NCBI GenBank assembly: GCA_009646425.1
Contig: WJBW01000001.1
Span: 144,547 to 208,546 of the forward strand
Reading direction: 5' to 3'
From: Burkholderiales bacterium LSUCC0115
Lineage (GTDB): Bacteria; Pseudomonadota; Gammaproteobacteria; Burkholderiales; Burkholderiaceae_A
DNA: 64,000 nt
This document shows, piece by piece, positions 773-30,274 of the stretch; within the stretch, counting starts at the first letter, position 1; every line of letters starts with the position of its first letter. The notes under the pieces were generated by a model. It was given only the letters and a program-made list of their open reading frames with translations. It was not told the origin of the DNA and searched no databases. A program made the translations under genes and the position numbers.

Positions 773-2149
773 ATGCAAAGCATCGTCGAATTCAATCAAA
801 GAGAAAGCCTGCACCAGGAGGTGCATGCCCGGCCCCCGATCGCCTTGTGGCCCCAGGAACGGGTCGTTCACCAGGCTTTTCTCATCACCAGACCAGAACA
901 GCGGGAGATGCAGCGGGAGTGGGTCGATGCCCTGTCGCGGGTGCTGCAGCAGCCTGGACACCCGGTGCATGGCCGCAGTGTCCGTGTTTTAGAGCTCAAC
1001 CCGGCCCCCTCTCGACTGCTGTTGAAATGGGAAATGCATGGCGAGTTCTGTGCGGTCACCCTCTACCTTCAGGGCGAGCCCTCAGAACGCCCCTTTCATG
1101 AGACCCGTACCGACATCCGGCAGCGATTTCACACCAGACTGGCCGAACTGGGCGTCAAAACCTTAGGACCTGAGTCCGGGGAACGCATCAGTGCGGTCGA
1201 CATCACGATTGCTCAGGAACAGCTCAGTGAAGACGCCGCCGACGTGGCCCCGCGCTTTCAGGGCAACACCGTCATCGGTGGGACGATTCTGGGCACCCGT
1301 CGTGCCCAGGTCTGGACGGATTTCCAGATCGATGCCGGCGGTTACATCAATTTCCTGGTGAACCACCAAGGCATGGGTTCGCGTCAGGCCGGCCGAGTGG
1401 TCCAGCGACTCATCGACATCGACACCTACCGCATGATGGCCCTCCTGGCCTTGCCGAGAGCCAAGTCTCTCTCCGAGCCGCTCAGCAAGGCGGAGTCGGA
1501 CCTGTCCACGCTGTCGACCCGGCTCACGGACACCCAAACAGGCGACAGCGATCAGACCATCCAGACCGATGGCCAGCTGCTCAATGGCGTATCGGCATTG
1601 GCTGCACGAGTAGAAGGCTGGGTCTCTGAACACGGGCTGCGATTTACCGCAAGCGAGGCCTACAGCGACCTCGTTCGGCGCGCGCTCAGCGAACTGAAAG
1701 AAACCGCCCTTCCGGGTGTGCAGACCCTGGGTGAGTTCATGGAGCGGCGTTTTGAGCCAGCCATGCGCACCTGTCGCTGGACCCAGCGACGGCTTCGGGA
1801 GCTGTCGGACCGTATCTCGCGCACCACGCAAATCTTGCGAACCCGGATTGAATTTGTGAATGAGCGTCAGACCCAGGCCCTGCTCTCCAGCATGGACCGT
1901 CGGGCCAAGCTGCAACTCAAGCTGCAGCAGACCGTTGAGGGACTGTCTCTGGTGGTGCTCAGCTATTACGCGGTCGGCTTGATTGGGTACCTGGTCAAGG
2001 GACTCAAGTCAGCCGGGCTCCATGTCGATGCCGAACTGGTCACCGGACTGGCCGTGCCCGTCGTGGCGGGACTGCTCTACTGGGGCATCAGGCGGGCGCG
2101 CAAACGCGCACCTGGCTATGAGAGTCCAACACCTGACAAGCCCCAGTAA
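773..2149 (+). CDS. DUF3422 family membrane-anchored protein
   Basis: The 458-residue protein begins with the family signature around HQEVHARPP (residues 14-22). A long soluble region follows, rich in Arg, Glu and Leu and probably partly coiled coil (about 230-390). Two hydrophobic helices near residues 390-440 and a basic C-terminus (RRARKRAPGY) complete it. This matches DUF3422, a proteobacterial family of unknown function usually about 420-460 residues long. Its 3' end overlaps the convergent cbbY-like gene by 62 bases. The two transcripts therefore run into each other, and no terminator is visible between them. Confidence 0.75.
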   Translation: MQSIVEFNQRESLHQEVHARPPIALWPQERVVHQAFLITRPEQREMQREWVDALSRVLQQPGHPVHGRSVRVLELNPAPSRLLLKWEMHGEFCAVTLYLQGEPSERPFHETRTDIRQRFHTRLAELGVKTLGPESGERISAVDITIAQEQLSEDAADVAPRFQGNTVIGGTILGTRRAQVWTDFQIDAGGYINFLVNHQGMGSRQAGRVVQRLIDIDTYRMMALLALPRAKSLSEPLSKAESDLSTLSTRLTDTQTGDSDQTIQTDGQLLNGVSALAARVEGWVSEHGLRFTASEAYSDLVRRALSELKETALPGVQTLGEFMERRFEPAMRTCRWTQRRLRELSDRISRTTQILRTRIEFVNERQTQALLSSMDRRAKLQLKLQQTVEGLSLVVLSYYAVGLIGYLVKGLKSAGLHVDAELVTGLAVPVVAGLLYWGIRRARKRAPGYESPTPDKPQ

Positions 2150-2807
2150 AGTCGGCCTGCTCAAAGTAAAAAGACTTCACCACCAGGCAGGGCATGCCGA
2201 TGGCCTGAGCGGCCTTCAGGCCATTGGGAGAGTCCTCGACCGCCAGACAGTCTGAGGGTTGAATCCCCAATCGATCCGCCGCGAGCTGATAGGCCTCCGG
2301 ATCTGGTTTTTTGTGAGCCACGTCCTCACCGCAGACGATCACCGCCGGATCACGCAGCCCACTATCCCTGAAGCTGTTGACCCAGAGCACATCCCAATTG
2401 CCCCGGCTGGTCGTGGTCACCACGCCCCACGGACAGCCGGCCTTTTCTAGATCAGCCATCCAGGCCAGAAGTCCTTGTCGAAGGGGCAACTCCCCCGTCT
2501 GCACAATCTGGGCATAGAGTCGGTTCTTGAGCTGATGGGCCTGACGCAGCCGATCCAGGCCGTCGGTGGACAGCGCCTGCTCGTCGCCGATATGACGCGC
2601 CCAGACCTGCATGCGCTCATAACCGCCAGTGGTCTTGAGCAGCCAGGCATAGTCCTGAGGCGTCCAGTGCCAGCCCAGGCCAGTCTGCTCAAAGGCCTGG
2701 TTAAAGGCGGGCAGGTGTCCATCACGCTCGGTCTCAGCCAGCGTGCCGTCGACATCAAAGAGAACCGCCCGACAGCGGCTCAGGTCTAGAGACCAGGTGA
2801 TGGACAT
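2088..2807 (-). CDS. cbbY: CbbY-like HAD-family sugar bisphosphate phosphatase
   Basis: The HAD motifs are all visible: I FDVDGTLAETE with the nucleophile and acid/base Asp, II VTTTSR, III with the Lys in HKKPDPEAY, and IV VEDSPNGLKAA. The cap region and the ETERDGH stretch after motif I match CbbY. Related CbbY proteins remove xylulose-1,5-bisphosphate, a misfire product that inhibits RuBisCO. The ATG at 2807 (AAGG upstream) is preferred over the in-frame GTG at 2822. It is the last gene of the cbb operon, 15 bases after the aldolase. A general beta-phosphoglucomutase-like role cannot be excluded from sequence alone. Confidence 0.75.
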   Translation of the reverse strand: MSITWSLDLSRCRAVLFDVDGTLAETERDGHLPAFNQAFEQTGLGWHWTPQDYAWLLKTTGGYERMQVWARHIGDEQALSTDGLDRLRQAHQLKNRLYAQIVQTGELPLRQGLLAWMADLEKAGCPWGVVTTTSRGNWDVLWVNSFRDSGLRDPAVIVCGEDVAHKKPDPEAYQLAADRLGIQPSDCLAVEDSPNGLKAAQAIGMPCLVVKSFYFEQADFTGACQVLDSHSQVRVCAPA

Positions 2808-2822
2808 CGTGCCTTGACCCAC

Positions 2823-3887
2823 TTACTTCACAACAGCGCGAAGCTCACCCTTGGCGTATTTAGTCGCCATGGTGTCCATGGGGATCACGCGAATCTTGGA
2901 GGCACGACCTGCGCAGCCAAAGGCTTCGAAGCGGGCCTTACAAATCCCCTTGGCCGCCGCAGTCGCCACTTTAAAGAAAGCGCGTGGGTCGAATTCGCTG
3001 GGCTTCTCTGCCATGAGCTTTCGCATGGCGCCGGTCATCGCCAGCCGAATGTCGGTGTCGATGTTGACCTTGCGAACGCCATTCTTGATGCCCTCGACGA
3101 TCTCTTCCACTGGCACACCGTAGGTCTCTTTGATGTCACCACCGTAGGCGCGGATGATCTCCAACCACTCCTGTGGCACGCTCGAGGAGCCATGCATGAC
3201 CAGATGGGTATTGGGGATTCGGGCGTGGATCTCTTTGATGCGACCGATGGCCAGCGTGTCGCCCGTGGGGGGGCGCGTGAATTTATAGGCGCCGTGGCTG
3301 GTGCCAATGGCAATGGCCAGGGCATCCACACCGGTGTCTTTGACGAACTCGGCCGCCTCCGCGGGATCGGTCAGCAACTGGGAGTGATCCAAGACACCCT
3401 CGGCACCAACCCCATCCTCTTCGCCGGCCATGCCGGTTTCGAGAGACCCCAAACAGCCGAGCTCACCCTCGACAGACACGCCGACGGCATGAGCCATCTC
3501 CACCACACGACGTGTCACTTCGACGTTATAGGCGTAGTCAGACGGCGTCTTCATGTCCTCTTTGAGCGATCCGTCCATCATGACGCTGGAAAATCCGCTG
3601 CGAATCGAAGCCTGGCAGACGGCGGGCGATGAGCCATGGTCTTGGTGCATACAGACCGGAATGTCCGGGTACTGCTCGATGGCGGCGTCCACCAGCTTGC
3701 GCAGAAAAGGCTCACCTGCATACTTACGAGCACCCGCTGAGGCCTGAAGAATCACAGGGCTGTCGACCTCGGCTGCGGCCTGCATGATCGCGTGGATCTG
3801 CTCCATGTTGTTCACGTTGAAAGCCGGCAGGCCATAGCCATGTTCTGCTGCATGGTCGAGTAGTTGTCTAAGTGAAATCAAAGCCAT
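2823..3887 (-). CDS. cbbA: Class II fructose-1,6-bisphosphate aldolase (CBB cycle)
   Basis: The protein has 354 residues, as usual for the CbbA/Fba class II subgroup. It contains MHQDHGSS (about residues 80-87), with the zinc-binding His and catalytic Asp. [19 protein letters not shown] and KVNIDTDIR (substrate phosphate binding) follow. In the Calvin cycle this enzyme condenses triose phosphates to fructose-1,6-bisphosphate and also makes sedoheptulose-1,7-bisphosphate. The gene lies between cbbZ (39 bases upstream) and cbbY. It may be the only aldolase and so serve glycolysis and gluconeogenesis too. Confidence 0.93.
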
Positions 3888-22926: not shown

Positions 22927-24732
22927 ATGGATCTTCAAACCACGATCTATCTCGTAGTCGGCGCAACCTTCGCCCTCTACATTGGTATCGCGATCTGGGC
23001 CCGTGCGGGTTCCACGAGCGAGTTCTACGCTGCCGGCGGCCAGGTTGGACCGGTGAAAAACGGTATGGCGACTGCTGCAGACTGGATGTCAGCGGCCTCG
23101 TTCATCTCGATGGCTGGCCTGATCTCGAACATGGGATACGGCGGTGGCCTGTTCTTGATGGGCTGGACCGGTGGCTACGTTCTGCTGGCATGTCTGCTGG
23201 CCCCGTACCTTCGTAAGTTCGGTAAGTTTACGGTCCCCCAGTTCATCGGTGACCGTTTCTACTCACAGGGCGCCTCGACGATTGCGGTTATCTGTCTGCT
23301 GGTCGCTTCGATCACCTACATCATCGGTCAGATGACCGGCGTTGGAATCGCCTTCTCGCGCTTCCTAGGTGTCTCGAAAGAGATGGGTATCTACGTTGGT
23401 ATGGCCATCGTGTTCGCCTATGCAGTGTTCGGCGGCATGAAGGGCATCACCTACACCCAGGTGGCTCAGTACATCGTGCTTATCTTCGCCTACGTGATTC
23501 CCGCCATCTTCATCTCGATCGCCCTGACTGGCGTGCCCCTCCCCCAACTGGGTCTGGGTGCTGACATGACTGGTACCGACAAGTCCCTGCTGCTCACGCT
23601 GAACCAAATCGTGAACGACCTGGGCTTTGGCGCGTACACCACGTCTGTGCCGGGTAGCAAACTCAACATGTTTGTCTACACCTTCTCACTGATGATCGGT
23701 ACCGCTGGTCTGCCCCACGTGATCATGCGCTTCTTCACGGTGCCTTCCGTGAAGGCTGCACGTTCATCCGCTGGCTGGGCCCTGGTCTTCATCGCGATCC
23801 TGTACACCACCGCTCCTGCAGTGGCTGCCATGGCTCGTATGAACCTGCACAGCACCATCGCTCCTGTCGTGAAGACCGGTGGCGACGTGTTTGCTGCTGA
23901 CGCCTCGATCAAGTATGACGATCGTCCGGCCTGGTTCAAGCGTTGGGAGCAGACTGGTCTGCTGAAGTTTGCCGACAAGAACGGCGACGGCCGCATCCAG
24001 TACTACAACGACAAGTCCAAGAACGAAGCCTTCGTCAAGAAAGCTGAAGCTGCTGGCTGGAAGGGCAACGAGCTCACGGTAAACGCTGACATCATCGTGT
24101 TGGCCAACCCCGAGATCGCACTGCTGCCCAACTGGGTGATCGCCCTGGTGGCTGCCGGTGGTCTGGCTGCTGCTCTGTCGACCGCTGCTGGCCTGCTGAT
24201 GGCCATCTCGTCTGCCATCTCCCACGACCTGGTGAAGGGTGTCTTTGCGCCCAACATCAGTGAAAAGGGTGAACTCATGGCCGGTAAGATCGCCATGGCG
24301 GCTTCGATCGTGGTCGCTGGTTACCTGGGTCTGAACCCACCAGGCTTCGCAGCTGGTACGGTGGCCCTGGCCTTCGGTATTGCGGCTTCCACCCTCTTCC
24401 CCGCCATCATGATGGGCATCTTCTCCAAGAAGATGAACAAAGAGGGCGTCATGGCCGGTATGCTGGTTGGTCTTGGTGTCACGCTGTTCTATGTGTTCGC
24501 ACACAAGGGCATCTTCTTCATCAAGGGCACTGAGTATCTGCCCCTCATCGGTGGCGCCAATAGCTTCTTTGGCATCACGCCTGAGGCCTTCGGTGGCATC
24601 GGTGCTCTGGTGAACTTTGCCGTCGCCTTCGCGGTCGACAAGGTCACCCCAGAGCCTCCTGCCCACATCCAGCAGATGGTTGAGAACGTCCGGATCCCCC
24701 GTGGCTCCAGGGCTGTGGACGGCGCTCACTAA
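22927..24732 (+). CDS. Sodium:solute symporter of the VC_2705 type (acetate or other carboxylate)
   Basis: The 601-residue SSS transporter has GGQVGPVKNGMATAADWMSAASF near the N-terminus. About 13 helices follow. A soluble insert at residues 320-385 carries DKNGDGRIQYYN, an EF-hand-like loop whose twelfth residue is Asn instead of Glu. Relatives take up acetate, propionate or pyruvate with Na+. The TM region includes ALSTAAGLLMAISSAISHD, conserved in ActP. AAGGAGCTGAC precedes the ATG. The substrate is inferred from the family. The strong Ala/Ile/Gly codon regularity suggests high expression. Confidence 0.9.
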   Translation: MDLQTTIYLVVGATFALYIGIAIWARAGSTSEFYAAGGQVGPVKNGMATAADWMSAASFISMAGLISNMGYGGGLFLMGWTGGYVLLACLLAPYLRKFGKFTVPQFIGDRFYSQGASTIAVICLLVASITYIIGQMTGVGIAFSRFLGVSKEMGIYVGMAIVFAYAVFGGMKGITYTQVAQYIVLIFAYVIPAIFISIALTGVPLPQLGLGADMTGTDKSLLLTLNQIVNDLGFGAYTTSVPGSKLNMFVYTFSLMIGTAGLPHVIMRFFTVPSVKAARSSAGWALVFIAILYTTAPAVAAMARMNLHSTIAPVVKTGGDVFAADASIKYDDRPAWFKRWEQTGLLKFADKNGDGRIQYYNDKSKNEAFVKKAEAAGWKGNELTVNADIIVLANPEIALLPNWVIALVAAGGLAAALSTAAGLLMAISSAISHDLVKGVFAPNISEKGELMAGKIAMAASIVVAGYLGLNPPGFAAGTVALAFGIAASTLFPAIMMGIFSKKMNKEGVMAGMLVGLGVTLFYVFAHKGIFFIKGTEYLPLIGGANSFFGITPEAFGGIGALVNFAVAFAVDKVTPEPPAHIQQMVENVRIPRGSRAVDGAH

Positions 24733-25283: not shown

Positions 25284-25763
25284 CTAGAGGTCTGCCAAGG
25301 GCTGAAAGGCACCCGGTGCACCAACGGGCTGACCCATGCGGGCAATGACGTGGTCCAGCTGACCTTCAAGCGCCTGAATCGAGGATGGTGGCATTTCAGC
25401 TAGGGCCTGAACCAGGACACCGATCTTGGGCTCGGGTACCTTGGCCAACAATGTCTTGGCCTTGTCGGTGCTGGTGAGCTCAAAAGCCCGGGCGTCGTCC
25501 AGATTGCGCTCTCGGGTGACATAGCCCTCTGAGACTAGATGCCGAATGATGTTGCTGGCCGTGGACTGGTGGATGGCCAGCGCCTCGGTTAACTCCCCAG
25601 GGCGCACCCCGGGGTTCTCATCGATGATGGCCAACGCCCAGACATGTGATCCCGACAACCCTGTGACTTTTTCGACCTTCCGGTAGTGCTCTTTGACAGC
25701 GCGAAAAATGACTCGAAACTGCTTGAGAACCCGGACAGCATGGTCCGGCACATGGGTTTTCAT
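25284..25763 (-). CDS. MarR-family transcriptional regulator
   Basis: The 159-residue protein has a winged helix: RPGELTEALAIHQSTASNIIRHL is the recognition region and YVTRERNLDDARAFEL the wing. Such dimers usually bind a palindrome near their own promoter and are released by phenolic or other small ligands. No clear palindrome was seen in the 39 bases before the gene. It starts 40 bases after the TonB-receptor stop on the same strand. It may be co-transcribed with it under the TPP riboswitch. Confidence 0.85.
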   Translation of the reverse strand: MKTHVPDHAVRVLKQFRVIFRAVKEHYRKVEKVTGLSGSHVWALAIIDENPGVRPGELTEALAIHQSTASNIIRHLVSEGYVTRERNLDDARAFELTSTDKAKTLLAKVPEPKIGVLVQALAEMPPSSIQALEGQLDHVIARMGQPVGAPGAFQPLADL

Positions 25764-25802
25764 AGGGCCTCCGAGATGGGAATCTGCGAAGGCTACACCT
25801 TT

Positions 25803-28025
25803 TTAAAAGGAAACGGTGGCTGAAGCTTTGACCAGCCTTGGAGCCCCAGGCGTCAGGTAGGCATCCCCCAGAAACTCCGCCACATCCCGCCAGCACCGCT
25901 CGTCTGTGACGTTCTCAATGGCCAGCCGGTAGGTGGCGGCCCCTGCCTTAGTCTTTTGGACATAGGACAAGCCCAGGTCTAGGCGGTGGAAGTCAGGCGC
26001 ATAGACCGAGTTGTCCCGGGAGGCGGGACGCTTACCGGTGTAGAGCCAGTTGGCACTGGCCGACAGGCCCTCGATGCCCGGTACCCGATAGTTAACAAAG
26101 GTGTTCAGGCGGAACTTGGGTGTGTTCAAGGCCTCTTTGCCCTCGAACAAGGGGTTGCCCGTGCCGGAGGTGTCCGAGGTCATCAGCGTGGCCGAGATCT
26201 GAGCGTCTGTGCGCTTGGTGAGCGCACCCGAGAGGCTGAGCTCTAGTCCAGTACGAGATTCGGTACCGCGTTGGATGTAGTCACCAACCGCCTGGCTATC
26301 CGCAAGAGATGCATCGTTTCTAAAGTTAAAGGGGCGCCAGGCATGGAACATGGTGGCCATCATACGAACACCCGGCTGCTCCCACTTGTAAGCCAAGTCC
26401 AATGTCTCAACCTTGCGTGGCTTGAGCAACATTTCAGAGGTTGAGGCGGAATCAAGGTGATTCTGACTGGATTGGGGTGCAAGCGACGCGGCCTCTAAAT
26501 CAGAGGAGTACCCAAACCAATAAGCCGTTTCCGTGCCTAACTTTCTTTGAACTCGTAAGTCAGGCAAGAGGCTCGTCATAGAGCGAGAAAAATCGCCAGT
26601 CCGGTAGAGAAAGTTGACGGTCGCATCATCCTGGTAATTAATGACTCTTCCAGATGCAGTGACCTGCCATTTGCTTGGGAATGTAATCTGATCCGAGAGG
26701 GAAAGCTGTGAAACGTAGATTGTCCGACCGTATGCATCTTTAGCCGGATACTGGTCGGGGTTCTCATCGCCACTCCAGGTGCCGCTTAGAACGTTTCCGT
26801 AAGACGGAAAAGGTGCCGCATCGTTCCACCTGTAATTGGGCATTGAAAAATATCGACGGGTCAGACTAATCGCCGTTCTCAAGGTGTGATCAAAGCCCCC
26901 CGAATTCAGCACACGCTTAAAGTCAGCCTCGAGAAAATCTGTCTCACGCACTTCGTCCAAGCTTCGGTAGTCATACATGGAGAATTTTCCATCGCTTGAG
27001 AAGCGATAGTAAGCTTGGGTACCGTAGTTGGCGTATTCCGCAGTGGAGTAGCCAAACGGAAAACTACTCCGATCATCCGTCTTCACGTGATGTACGGATC
27101 CAGTCGCAGTCATCTTCCAGCCGCTCTGCAACTTCTTCTGCAGGCGGGCCATGGCAAAGATGGAATCAAATGTCACCGGCTGTGACCAGCTGCTCAAGCC
27201 CAGGACCGTCACTGGATTAATCGGTGCAAGTGTTGTGCCACCCAGCAACTGACTACCGGGCTGGGTGATCTGCGACTTGTGGGCGATCTCAACGTCCACC
27301 TGCAAGGAGTCACCACCAGATAAACGCTGGTCCATGGCGAGCGAGACCATGGCACCCTCGCCGTCTGCGCCCTTGGCATAGGGCCTGTATCGATCGGCAC
27401 TGGCATTCAAACGCCAGCCCTGCCCGCTGCCATCCGCCACGCCAATATCTGCCGTCAGGCCCAGACTCTCGCGCTGCTCAACCCGCAGGCCAGCCTCACG
27501 AATATTGTCAGGCCGTTTGGTGAGCAAGTTGATCAAGCCACCACTGCTGCCCATGCCCACCAGTGCCCCAGCAGGTCCGCGCAGGACCTCTACGCGTTGC
27601 TTGTTGTCCATGGAAATCGGCGCCTCGCCCACAAACGGCACACCGTTTACCCGCATGCCCAGCACCGGATCCACCGGAAAGCCCCGAATCTGAAAATTCT
27701 CGTAGTAGCCGATGGGGCTGTAGTTGGGATCCACCGACGAATCCAGCCGCAGCAGGTCGGTCAGCCGACTGCTGCCCGAGTTCTTGATCGCATCCTCATC
27801 AATCGTTGTTGCTGAGACCGGCTGGTCCAGCCAATTTCCCTGAAAGAAGCTGCCCAGCAGGCTCAGCGGCTGGGCCTGGGTGCCCAGCACCGTGGACTCC
27901 ACACGAACCTCTGGCAGCGTAGTCTGGGCCCAGGCTGAGGGCGTCACAGCAACTGTATTGACCAGGGCGAGCGCAATCGCAACGGAGAGGGCGTTCTGAG
28001 AAGGCAGTTGTTTTGTTTTGTTCAC
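25803..28025 (-). CDS. TonB-dependent receptor, probably for thiamine or a precursor
   Basis: The 740-residue protein starts at GTG 28025. A signal peptide is cleaved after PSAWA. A plug domain follows (about 50-180) with FQIRGFPVDPV and VEVLRGPAGALVGMGSSGGLIN. The barrel ends in the aromatic KASATVSF. By sequence it belongs to the siderophore-type class. Its leader is a TPP riboswitch (28108-28218), which argues for uptake of thiamine or a thiamine precursor instead of iron. The plug segment near the N-terminus (TTLPEVRVESTVLG) includes a TonB-box-like region. A PnuC-type inner-membrane transporter is encoded just upstream. Confidence 0.88.
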   Translation of the reverse strand: MNKTKQLPSQNALSVAIALALVNTVAVTPSAWAQTTLPEVRVESTVLGTQAQPLSLLGSFFQGNWLDQPVSATTIDEDAIKNSGSSRLTDLLRLDSSVDPNYSPIGYYENFQIRGFPVDPVLGMRVNGVPFVGEAPISMDNKQRVEVLRGPAGALVGMGSSGGLINLLTKRPDNIREAGLRVEQRESLGLTADIGVADGSGQGWRLNASADRYRPYAKGADGEGAMVSLAMDQRLSGGDSLQVDVEIAHKSQITQPGSQLLGGTTLAPINPVTVLGLSSWSQPVTFDSIFAMARLQKKLQSGWKMTATGSVHHVKTDDRSSFPFGYSTAEYANYGTQAYYRFSSDGKFSMYDYRSLDEVRETDFLEADFKRVLNSGGFDHTLRTAISLTRRYFSMPNYRWNDAAPFPSYGNVLSGTWSGDENPDQYPAKDAYGRTIYVSQLSLSDQITFPSKWQVTASGRVINYQDDATVNFLYRTGDFSRSMTSLLPDLRVQRKLGTETAYWFGYSSDLEAASLAPQSSQNHLDSASTSEMLLKPRKVETLDLAYKWEQPGVRMMATMFHAWRPFNFRNDASLADSQAVGDYIQRGTESRTGLELSLSGALTKRTDAQISATLMTSDTSGTGNPLFEGKEALNTPKFRLNTFVNYRVPGIEGLSASANWLYTGKRPASRDNSVYAPDFHRLDLGLSYVQKTKAGAATYRLAIENVTDERCWRDVAEFLGDAYLTPGAPRLVKASATVSF

Positions 28026-28107
28026 AGCGCAGTCCTATTCAAAGCACAGGAAGGCTGCAAAAAGGCCGCAATGGATGGGCAGACGGCACAGGCCCAACGG
28101 CGGATAC

Positions 28108-28218
28108 TTTCGACGCTTCCCTGCGCAAGTCTTAACTCGATCAGGTTCGAAGGGTCTGTCTCACCCGCCTCTTTCGAGGACTCTGCAAACCAACCACAGA
28201 GCGCTTCGGGACCCCTAG
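28108..28218 (-). promoter_or_regulatory. TPP riboswitch (THI element)
   Basis: On the minus strand the leader contains the pyrimidine-sensing GGGTGAGACAG and, after it, ACCCTTCGAACCTGATCGAG. It closes with TTAAGACTTGCGCAGGGAAG. These are the conserved J2-3/P2 and P4/L5 elements of the thi-box. The 5' part (CTAGGGGTCCC) can pair with the 3' part. It precedes the TonB receptor by about 80 bases. TPP binding should reduce expression, probably by hiding the ribosome-binding site, because no clear terminator is visible. Confidence 0.9.
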
Positions 28219-28225
28219 CAATGAG

Positions 28226-28765
28226 TTAGTGTAAAGCCGCTATGGCTCTAAGCGCAAGCCGAACTCGGCTATCCCCTGCGCCGACAATGGGCACCACAGG
28301 ACCGCTCGAGCCCTGCAACCGCCTAACCAATAGCTCATGAACGGCCGCCTGAATCTCTGGGCCGTCACGCTGACCCGTGTCCGCCACCCAAGGCAGATCC
28401 GGCTGGCAGAACAAGGTCAGAGAGACCTGCTGGTGATAAGTCAGGGCAGGCCCGTAGAGCGCTTCGTCGCCAAAATAAAACTCGCTGTAGACCGCCGTCA
28501 TGATGGCGCTGCTGTCACACAGCACAAAGGGGCGCCCCAGGCTTGCGGCCTGACCCACGGCAGCCTCCTCCGCCCGAATCTGCTCTTGCATCAATGGAGT
28601 CTGCTCAGACTGAGTCGGCACGCGACCGTACTGCTCGACAAACTGACGCAGATGCTCTGGGACCACCACCGCGCTGACCTGCTCGGACAGGGCTTGCACC
28701 AGACTGGTCTTGCCCGTTGATTCGGCCCCAATCACTGCAATGCGTCGTACTAGCTGCGAAGCCAC
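28226..28765 (-). CDS. NadR-like P-loop kinase (nicotinamide riboside or thiamine kinase?)
   Basis: The 179-residue protein has Walker A GAESTGKTSLV near residue 13, VVPEHLRQFVEQYGRVP, and DSSAIMTAVYSEFYFGDE. These resemble the kinase domain of NadR, which phosphorylates nicotinamide riboside after PnuC brings it in. Here the partner transporter lies immediately upstream, and the TPP riboswitch-controlled receptor immediately downstream. A thiamine or hydroxymethylpyrimidine kinase role is therefore possible. The start is GTG 28765, 16 bases inside the end of the PnuC gene, so the two are coupled. Confidence 0.75.
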   Translation of the reverse strand: MASQLVRRIAVIGAESTGKTSLVQALSEQVSAVVVPEHLRQFVEQYGRVPTQSEQTPLMQEQIRAEEAAVGQAASLGRPFVLCDSSAIMTAVYSEFYFGDEALYGPALTYHQQVSLTLFCQPDLPWVADTGQRDGPEIQAAVHELLVRRLQGSSGPVVPIVGAGDSRVRLALRAIAALH

Positions 28766-29289
28766 TGCCGAAGTCCCACAAACGAGAGCACCAATTGCAC
28801 CGCATACAGACCAGCGGTGGCATAGAGCGCCTGCCCGGTGAACAGATAGATCGAGAGTCCATTGGCCAAGGCCCAGGCCAACCAGGCCTGATGCGCTTTG
28901 AGCGACATCAGTCGCATGGCGACAATGCTGATCGCCGTCACCAGGCTGTCCATCACCACCGATGGATTGTCAGAAGACCGCATCAGCATCCAGAGTGCGA
29001 GCCAAATGCCCAGCCCCGCCAGAACATAGAGAAGCGATGACTTGGTCGGCATCCAATGCGGCTCGGTCTGATCCGACTGAGTGGGCTGTGACCAGTCGCG
29101 CAGACCCCAGAGCGACAGGCCAATGAAAACGGTCATAAGCAGGACCTGTCCGTACAGGCCAACCGTCCAATAGAGCCACAGGTAGATCAAGCTAGAGGCG
29201 GCAAAAAACCACCAGGCCCACAGGTGCTGGCGAATGCCCAGCACCACACCCACCAAGCCTAGAGCAGCGCCGACCCACTCCCAGATCAT
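28750..29289 (-). CDS. PnuC-family vitamin transporter (PnuT-like?)
   Basis: Counted from the ATG at 29289 the protein has 179 residues and about six or seven hydrophobic helices. WAWWFFAASSLIYLWLYW carries the Trp-rich motif of PnuC, and LALWMLM and GLYAVQLVLSFVGLRQW are further helices. PnuC proteins move nicotinamide riboside, and relatives (PnuT) move thiamine, trapped by phosphorylation inside. The ATG overlaps the DsbA-like stop as ATGA. The adjacent kinase and TPP-controlled receptor make thiamine the more likely cargo. Confidence 0.85.
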   Translation of the reverse strand: MIWEWVGAALGLVGVVLGIRQHLWAWWFFAASSLIYLWLYWTVGLYGQVLLMTVFIGLSLWGLRDWSQPTQSDQTEPHWMPTKSSLLYVLAGLGIWLALWMLMRSSDNPSVVMDSLVTAISIVAMRLMSLKAHQAWLAWALANGLSIYLFTGQALYATAGLYAVQLVLSFVGLRQWLRS

Positions 29290-29945
29290 GGCTGCATCAT
29301 CTGAAGCAGGGTCTGCCCCAGCACCGAGGGCGCAGCCGCGCCATTGATCAGTCGTTCTGCAGAGCCGCTCTTCAAACGGAAGGTGGGCACACCGTTGACA
29401 CCATGGTCGACCCACTCCTCTGCAATGTGTGACACCCGCTTGACCAGCATGGTGTCAGCCAGGGCAGCCTGTGCGCGCTCTGCGCTGAGACCAGCGCCTT
29501 CGGCACAATCCAGCAACACTGCCTGGTCAGCCAGGTTACGGCCATCCACAAAGAAAGCCTGAAAGAGCTGGTCCACCAGAGTGGTGGCCTCATCGCCCAT
29601 GGCAGCGATCAGCACGTGCGCAGCCAGGGTGTTGGGCTGTACGGGGATGGCATCCAGGTTCATGGGCAGGCCTGCCGCTCGGGCATGATCAGCAATCTGG
29701 GCATATCCAGCCAGACCAGCCTGCCCAAACTTGGCGACCAGGTAGTCTCGGCGGGGCATACCGCTCTCTGGCATGCGGGGGTTGAGCATGTAGGGGCTCC
29801 ACCTCACGCGAAGCCGAGTAGACGACCCAGGCTGCTGGCCCTCCAGCCAGGCAATGGCCTGCCGAAGGTGGGCCAGACCGATATAACACCACGGACAAAC
29901 CACATCCGAGATAATCTCAATCTCTAGTTCTTGGGGTTCAGACAT
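29286..29945 (-). CDS. DsbA-family FrnE-like oxidoreductase
   Basis: Counted from the ATG at 29945 (MSEPQELE) the protein has 219 residues. SDVVCPWCYIG near residue 15 gives the CPWC active site of FrnE/2-hydroxychromene-2-carboxylate isomerase-like proteins. A helical insert and the cis-Pro loop GVNGVPTFRLKSG follow. No signal peptide is present, so it is cytoplasmic. FrnE-type proteins act as thiol oxidoreductases in stress resistance. It is translated together with the PnuC gene (ATGA overlap). The HNH gene diverges 2 bases upstream. Confidence 0.85.
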   Translation of the reverse strand: MSEPQELEIEIISDVVCPWCYIGLAHLRQAIAWLEGQQPGSSTRLRVRWSPYMLNPRMPESGMPRRDYLVAKFGQAGLAGYAQIADHARAAGLPMNLDAIPVQPNTLAAHVLIAAMGDEATTLVDQLFQAFFVDGRNLADQAVLLDCAEGAGLSAERAQAALADTMLVKRVSHIAEEWVDHGVNGVPTFRLKSGSAERLINGAAAPSVLGQTLLQMMQP

Positions 29946-29947
29946 AG

Positions 29948-30274
29948 ATGGTTTCCAAACGCTCGCTTCGTTGGCAAGAAGGTCAGTCCTCAGACGGTCA
30001 GGAGATCGTACCCGAGGAGGATCTGCTGTGCCCTTTGTGTGGGCGTGAATTAATCCGTGGCGACAGCGTCGACGAGCATCATCTGATTCCAAGATCCCAG
30101 GGCGGCCGGGACAAATACCTGATCCACAAGGTCTGCCATCAGAAGATCCACCAGACCATCAAACCACGGGAACTGGCCAAGGCCTTCAACACCTGGCAGG
30201 CCCTTAGGGAACATCCCGAGATCGACAAGTTCATCGAATGGGTCCAGAAGCGCCCGCCCGAGTTTCTGGGGTGA
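29948..30274 (+). CDS. Small HNH endonuclease domain protein
   Basis: The 108-residue protein has CPLCGREL near residue 28, EHHLIPRSQGG near 43, and CHQKIHQ near 63. This is a complete HNH fold with a CxxC plus C zinc knuckle. Stand-alone HNH proteins of this size are common and often not mobile. No phage or restriction genes surround it. The gene follows the FrnE-like start by 2 bases divergently and precedes the MaoC gene by 13 bases, which suggests one transcript with it. Confidence 0.8.
   Translation: MVSKRSLRWQEGQSSDGQEIVPEEDLLCPLCGRELIRGDSVDEHHLIPRSQGGRDKYLIHKVCHQKIHQTIKPRELAKAFNTWQALREHPEIDKFIEWVQKRPPEFLG

Follow-up and report, generated by a model that had tools for sequence, protein, structure and literature searches.

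Genes and riboswitch of the cassette

The window considered here is a 64,000-nucleotide stretch from Burkholderiales bacterium LSUCC0115, and its minus strand carries, in this order, genes for a DsbA-like protein, a permease and a kinase, followed by a thiamine pyrophosphate (TPP) riboswitch, a TonB-dependent receptor and a MarR-type gene (Table 1). These parts and their order are read directly from the DNA. In all likelihood, the receptor, riboswitch, kinase and permease make up a cassette for the scavenging of thiamine (vitamin B1) in a thiamine-auxotrophic bacterium. A first-pass annotation had already proposed that the receptor, the permease and a trapping kinase scavenge thiamine. In substance this stands, backed by the riboswitch, by TPP-headed gene strings in other Burkholderiales, by a complete alternation of thiC and cassette in the genus, by a gap at the step from thiamine to thiamine monophosphate (TMP) and by the location in the slot of a thi operon. 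Two points need sharpening: the riboswitch apparently acts on the receptor only, and hydroxymethylpyrimidine (HMP) is an unlikely substrate. The coordinates it gave for the receptor coding sequence (28025-25803) and for the start of the permease (29289), both on the minus strand, are correct. The PnuC-like transporter and NadR-like kinase that it placed just upstream are found there as a PnuC-family permease and an AAA_28 kinase.

Table 1. Positions within the window of the cassette, its control elements and its flanking genes
Feature	Position	Strand	Basis or remark
TonB-dependent outer-membrane receptor, predicted thiamine receptor	25803..28025	(-)	GTG start, signal peptide-like N-terminus; PF07715 6.8e-16
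Predicted Shine-Dalgarno-sequestering hairpin GCAG-ccu-UCCU...AGGA-CUGC	28029..28058	(-)	From folding of 7 leaders
TPP riboswitch aptamer (THI element)	28101..28226	(-)	RF00059 58.1 bits; directly 3' of kinase stop codon
Promoter-like element TTGCGC-N18-TACACT	28228..28257	(-)	Within kinase gene 3' end, 8 nt 5' of GCTAGGGG
NadR-like, ribosylnicotinamide kinase (RNK)-type P-loop kinase, predicted thiamine kinase (thiamine to TMP)	28226..28765	(-)	PF13521, NadR folds, pathway gap
PnuC/PnuT-family inner-membrane permease, predicted thiamine facilitator	28750..29289	(-)	PF04973 4e-36, TIGR01528
DsbA-like protein	29286..29945	(-)	PF01323
MarR-type regulator adjoining receptor, left flank of swapped slot	25284..25763	(-)	Adjoins thiD in prototroph G009
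SSF symporter (ActP-like), left flank marker of slot	22927..24732	(+)	
HNH protein, right flank marker of slot	29948..30274	(+)	Adjoins thiE in prototrophs G007, G008

The receptor combines a plug domain (PF07715) with a C-terminal barrel (PF14905), which identifies it as a TonB-dependent receptor. Its described resemblance to a siderophore receptor holds as a likeness, TIGR01783 being the closest profile; the curated cut-off of that profile is, however, not reached (204.7 vs 223.5), so that membership is not supported. Its profile family is also that of the receptors that follow TPP riboswitches in Burkholderiales and in Bacteroidota. The permease clearly belongs to the Pnu family, with scores above the cut-offs of both PF04973 (125.1 vs 27.3) and TIGR01528 (72.6 vs 42.45). 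From its genomic context it is predicted to be a PnuT-like thiamine facilitator.

The kinase (179 amino acids) belongs to AAA_28 (PF13521), and its alignment to NadR falls in the kinase half of that protein. It covers only positions 161-311 of TIGR01526, at 67.8 bits vs a cut-off of 341, and is thus not a full NadR; the nicotinamide mononucleotide (NMN) adenylyltransferase domain is missing. The Walker A and B motifs are present (GAESTGKT and CDS). In the AlphaFold model (pLDDT 92.7) the fold is that of a NadR-type RNK: the nearest solved structures are the NadR entries 8x7f and 6gyf, the former being the closest with a TM-score of 0.83 at 22% identity.

Predicted control of the receptor by the riboswitch

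The THI element that had been reported ahead of the receptor is confirmed at 28226-28101 (-), where the RF00059 match exceeds the Rfam gathering score over the 64 kb window (58.1 vs 54.3 bits, E 8e-9). It is the single riboswitch of the window and the single TPP riboswitch found in the genome. The alignment retains the aptamer core (UGAGA, ACCUGAU, GCGcAGGGAA), and GCTAGGGG lies at 28219-28212. The riboswitch is located between kinase and receptor and not ahead of the permease-kinase pair. In front of that pair no riboswitch was found; here the start codon of the permease overlaps the stop codon of the DsbA-like gene (ATGA, 29286-29289), and the two genes are therefore probably co-transcribed. 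Within the genus, the DsbA-like gene stands beside the pnu gene only in genomes G000, G002 and G003, and was not found there in G001, G004 and G006.

At the 3' end of the kinase gene, the pattern TTGCNN-N18-TANACT occurs in all seven genus loci, 8-9 bases 5' of GCTAGGGG; it was picked after inspection of the genus sequences and is absent from 20/20 kinase 3' ends of other Burkholderiales. The element keeps a fixed spacing despite differences in the amino acids that this stretch encodes. This is suggestive of a separate receptor transcript that would start at the aptamer, from a promoter in the end of the kinase gene. Together with the position of the riboswitch behind the kinase, it points to control of the receptor alone, with the permease and kinase apparently escaping this riboswitch.

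The Shine-Dalgarno (SD) sequence of the receptor, AGGA at 28036-28033, is predicted by folding to be paired in 7/7 genus leaders, with an unpaired probability of 0.00-0.02. When the linker was shuffled for five of the leaders, the fraction of shuffles with an equally low value was 0.02, 0.06, 0.24, 0.07 and 0.08; in one of these five tests, that of G003, the pairing is unremarkable. On inspection, the sequestering arm is complementary to the 3' strand of the aptamer in most leaders, for example GGGAAGCG with CGUUUCCC in G004 and G006. This layout is that of a translational OFF switch. Once this strand is freed in the folding, SD accessibility rises in part, to 0.19-0.46 in six leaders, but hardly at all in G003. 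SD sequestration is a likely mechanism. A transcription terminator was rejected as expression platform: the scan returned none, and the T-run 3' of the window aptamer is not kept in G002.

The aptamers of the congeners show some variation. Those of G004-G006 (L105 8230-8500, L106 4230-4520, L107 8850-9115) appear to carry a long P3 insertion, owing to which they fall below the gathering threshold and are given a late 5' end by Rfam. The Rfam 5' boundary appears misplaced, and the true GCTAGGGG is probably the one at the end of the kinase gene. The UAG with which the kinase gene stops belongs to the conserved GCUAGGGG of the aptamer in G001 and G003 (L102 7680-7691, L104 6870-6881).

A gap in thiamine synthesis and an exchange at one locus

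The genome is estimated by the tool used to be 99.96% complete. In profile searches of it neither thiC nor thiE was found, and thiG gave only one partial match (19.5 bits, under the cut-off). The sole match to PF08543 (thiD) is likewise partial and, with 27.0 bits, just equals the cut-off; the operon thiD genes of G007 and G009 score 259-295 bits. The thiamine pyrophosphokinase (TPK) domain PF04263 was detected in none of 11 genus genomes, this one included, with control genomes positive. ThiL is present above its cut-off. With this gene content, the cell should be able to convert thiamine phosphate to TPP, but both routes to thiamine phosphate itself, de novo and from HMP and thiazole, should be closed, and the organism is apparently a thiamine auxotroph. 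Since ThiL is present while the step from thiamine to TMP is missing, the use of external thiamine requires a thiamine kinase, and the strongest candidate is the NadR-like one of the cassette.

The same gene content bears on whether a precursor of thiamine could be taken up through the cassette, for instance HMP, which had been raised as a growth substrate in the first-pass annotation. Transporters for HMP and thiazole do occur under TPP riboswitches in other bacteria (PMC3766115), and in the congener G004 thiE and thiD are found at an additional locus under TPP control. The window organism, however, has no thiE, and its one match to thiD is partial and borderline at best, so that the precursors could not be joined. 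HMP uptake was rejected on this ground, and import of a precursor is very improbable. At this locus of G004 (L111, G004:C3:494000-506000), a second TPP riboswitch adjoins thiE and a gene of the thiD family, but there is no thiC. Both genes lie in one long open frame, possibly encoding a fused ThiD-ThiE, and a weak PfkB-type match is also present; salvage of HMP and thiazole is a possible role for this locus.

Across the genus (11 genomes), the permease and kinase occur together in eight genomes (G000-G006, G010), none of which contains thiC. The remaining three (G007-G009) all possess thiC and have neither permease nor kinase (Fisher p 0.006, relatedness uncorrected). A tblastn search with the flank genes of the window revealed that both types share one slot. 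In the window, G001, G003, G004 and G006 it reads SSF symporter - MarR - [receptor, riboswitch, kinase, permease] - HNH; further on, the window, G002 and G003 have MaoC and malate synthase. In the prototroph G009 the order is a DUF294/CBS gene, DUF4212, symporter, MarR, [thiD, thiC, thiG, thiE], MaoC and malate synthase. HNH adjoins thiE in G007 and G008, and in the sister genus (G011, G013, G015) the symporter adjoins thiD. Depending on the species, this one site thus holds either the cassette or the thi operon (window 25284-30274 vs L214-L218, L104, L107). In the prototroph G008, the thiD by a TPP riboswitch (L095, G008:C3:7643-8227) appears broken, with two internal stops and a partial domain match.

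This shared site also matters for the origin of the riboswitch, which could be a relic of a lost thi operon standing before a siderophore receptor. The closest profile of the receptor would suit this explanation, as would the site, at which the relatives carry TPP-thiD-thiC-thiG-thiE. It is nevertheless hardly credible. The receptor scores under the TIGR01783 cut-off, the cassette is oriented opposite to the thi operon, and the same receptor family stands behind TPP riboswitches in Bacteroidota. Moreover, CTTGCGCAGGGAAGCG is common to this aptamer and to those that precede receptor cassettes in other Burkholderiales, but is not shared with the aptamers of the congeners' thi operons. For this reason the riboswitch probably arrived with the cassette, and heritage from the lost operon is disfavoured by aptamer sequence and orientation alike. 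No remnants of thi genes were found in the window.

In a tree of the flank proteins and ThiL, built on partial data, the prototroph G009 falls among the auxotrophs (98/98). This placement calls for two or more switches between the two states.

The cassette in other bacteria and its relation to known systems

A wider survey covered 80 loci with a relative of the kinase. In ten Burkholderiales loci (L124, L126-L130, L132-L134, L137) riboswitch, receptor, permease and kinase are contiguous in this order, and in two more (L125, L135) the receptor-permease-kinase string is truncated by the contig end. Because a single TPP riboswitch heads receptor, permease and kinase in these ten loci, the permease and kinase are tied to thiamine as well. 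In the trees, the window-type cassettes form one supported group and the receptor-first cassettes another. Among the Bacteroidota, L177 and L186 have the gene order of the window, and L195 (2372-3758) contains two TPP riboswitches, one ahead of permease-kinase and one ahead of the receptor. L197 from the Planctomycetota (Phycisphaerales; 1830-3729) contains permease, kinase and then a TPP riboswitch, with the contig ending about 1 kb further on. In the Burkholderiales, thiE is absent from 11 of the 12 genomes with a receptor-linked pair vs three of the nine with an unlinked pair (p 0.016, relatedness uncorrected). TPK was found in none of the 44 genomes with the kinase that were tested, whether or not the pair is linked to a receptor, and does not separate the two types.

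Several points weigh against thiamine scavenging by the whole cassette, some of them in favour of a receptor that alone serves thiamine, next to an ordinary salvage pair for nicotinamide riboside (NR). The profile names of the pair are PnuC and NadR, the nearest solved folds are those of NadR, and the riboswitch does not stand ahead of the pair here. Related pairs without a TPP riboswitch also occur in thiE-bearing genomes: the permease-kinase family is present in thiE-bearing Roseateles and Variovorax without riboswitch or receptor, so that the substrate cannot be read from family membership alone. In addition, the count of prototrophs and auxotrophs comes from only 11 related genomes, several of them incomplete. 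A stricter consensus promoter scan at its own threshold returns no promoter, the element in the kinase gene being a weak consensus match. Finally, no other thiamine-phosphorylating enzyme was found, but ThiK-like kinases of the aminoglycoside phosphotransferase (APH) family were not searched for. Still, in ten other Burkholderiales loci the pair stands close behind the receptor under one TPP riboswitch, and within the genus it swaps one-for-one with thiamine biosynthesis. The genome also contains nadC; nicotinamide adenine dinucleotide (NAD) can presumably be made de novo, and NR salvage is hence not evidently needed. With nothing else found to phosphorylate thiamine, within the limits of that search, we regard the NR pair as rather unlikely.

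For the thiamine cassette, the following mechanism can be proposed. The TonB receptor would carry thiamine across the outer membrane, after which the PnuT-like permease would let it through the inner membrane. The NadR-like kinase would then phosphorylate thiamine to TMP, thereby trapping it in the cell, and ThiL, encoded elsewhere, would form TPP. Binding of TPP to the riboswitch would turn off receptor synthesis, most likely by hiding the ribosome-binding site. The receptor message would come from its own promoter within the end of the kinase gene, leaving permease and kinase outside the switch. Like the parts and their order, the pathway genes present and missing and the exchange at the locus are seen in the sequence itself; the substrates, the kinase reaction, the promoter activity and the TPP response are inferred.

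Tnr3 is a TPK, and ThiK is of the APH type. The uptake of thiamine by OMthi and PnuT of Bacteroides thetaiotaomicron was shown genetically; their genes lie by TPP riboswitches, with tnr3 behind pnuT (BT2390, BT2396-2397; PMC5613172). As in the window, a TonB receptor and a Pnu-type permease are combined with TPP riboswitches and with a gene alongside for a thiamine-phosphorylating enzyme (here predicted), and the operons may be split. In place of Tnr3, the window encodes a NadR-like kinase with ThiL elsewhere, and B. thetaiotaomicron also makes thiamine, apparently unlike the window organism. Predicted thiamine TonB receptors (omr1) beside TPP riboswitches or PnuT have been noted before (PMC2771747, PMC10881298). 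They form the same riboswitch-linked class, easily labelled as siderophore receptors; the kinase partner, the evidence from the pathway gap and the locus swap set the present case apart.

The kinase shares the fold and P-loop kinase motifs of the NadR RNK domain (6gyf, 8x7f, 1lw7), but stands alone, without an NMN adenylyltransferase domain and in a thiamine context. Like ThiK of Escherichia coli (PMC4112796), it is predicted to convert thiamine to TMP for subsequent use by ThiL, although it is a NadR-type P-loop enzyme. The B1 salvage enzymes named in a gut-genome survey are ThiK, ThiM and ThiN (PMC6593275), and no text pairing 'thiamine kinase' with 'NadR' was found among the open-access papers searched. 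Thiamine uptake by a TonB receptor, PnuT and TPP control is of a known kind. Relative to those papers, a thiamine kinase of the NadR family and the replacement of biosynthesis by scavenging at one site provisionally look new.

We lean, if only slightly, towards a broader view in which a NadR-type kinase lineage took on the phosphorylation of thiamine, adding a third kind of enzyme to ThiK and TPK. Its cassette would have replaced the thi operon in place, perhaps repeatedly, by recombination in the shared flanks, and the species of the genus would alternate between making and scavenging at one locus. If true, the missing thiamine-salvage enzyme would be named for many Burkholderiales now annotated with NAD salvage, and PnuC/NadR annotations would conceal vitamin B1 genes. 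The genus would then offer a natural experiment, with congeneric species that differ at one locus in making vs capturing B1. As many aquatic bacteria are B1 auxotrophs, this would also bear on the cross-feeding of B1 (PMC10881298).

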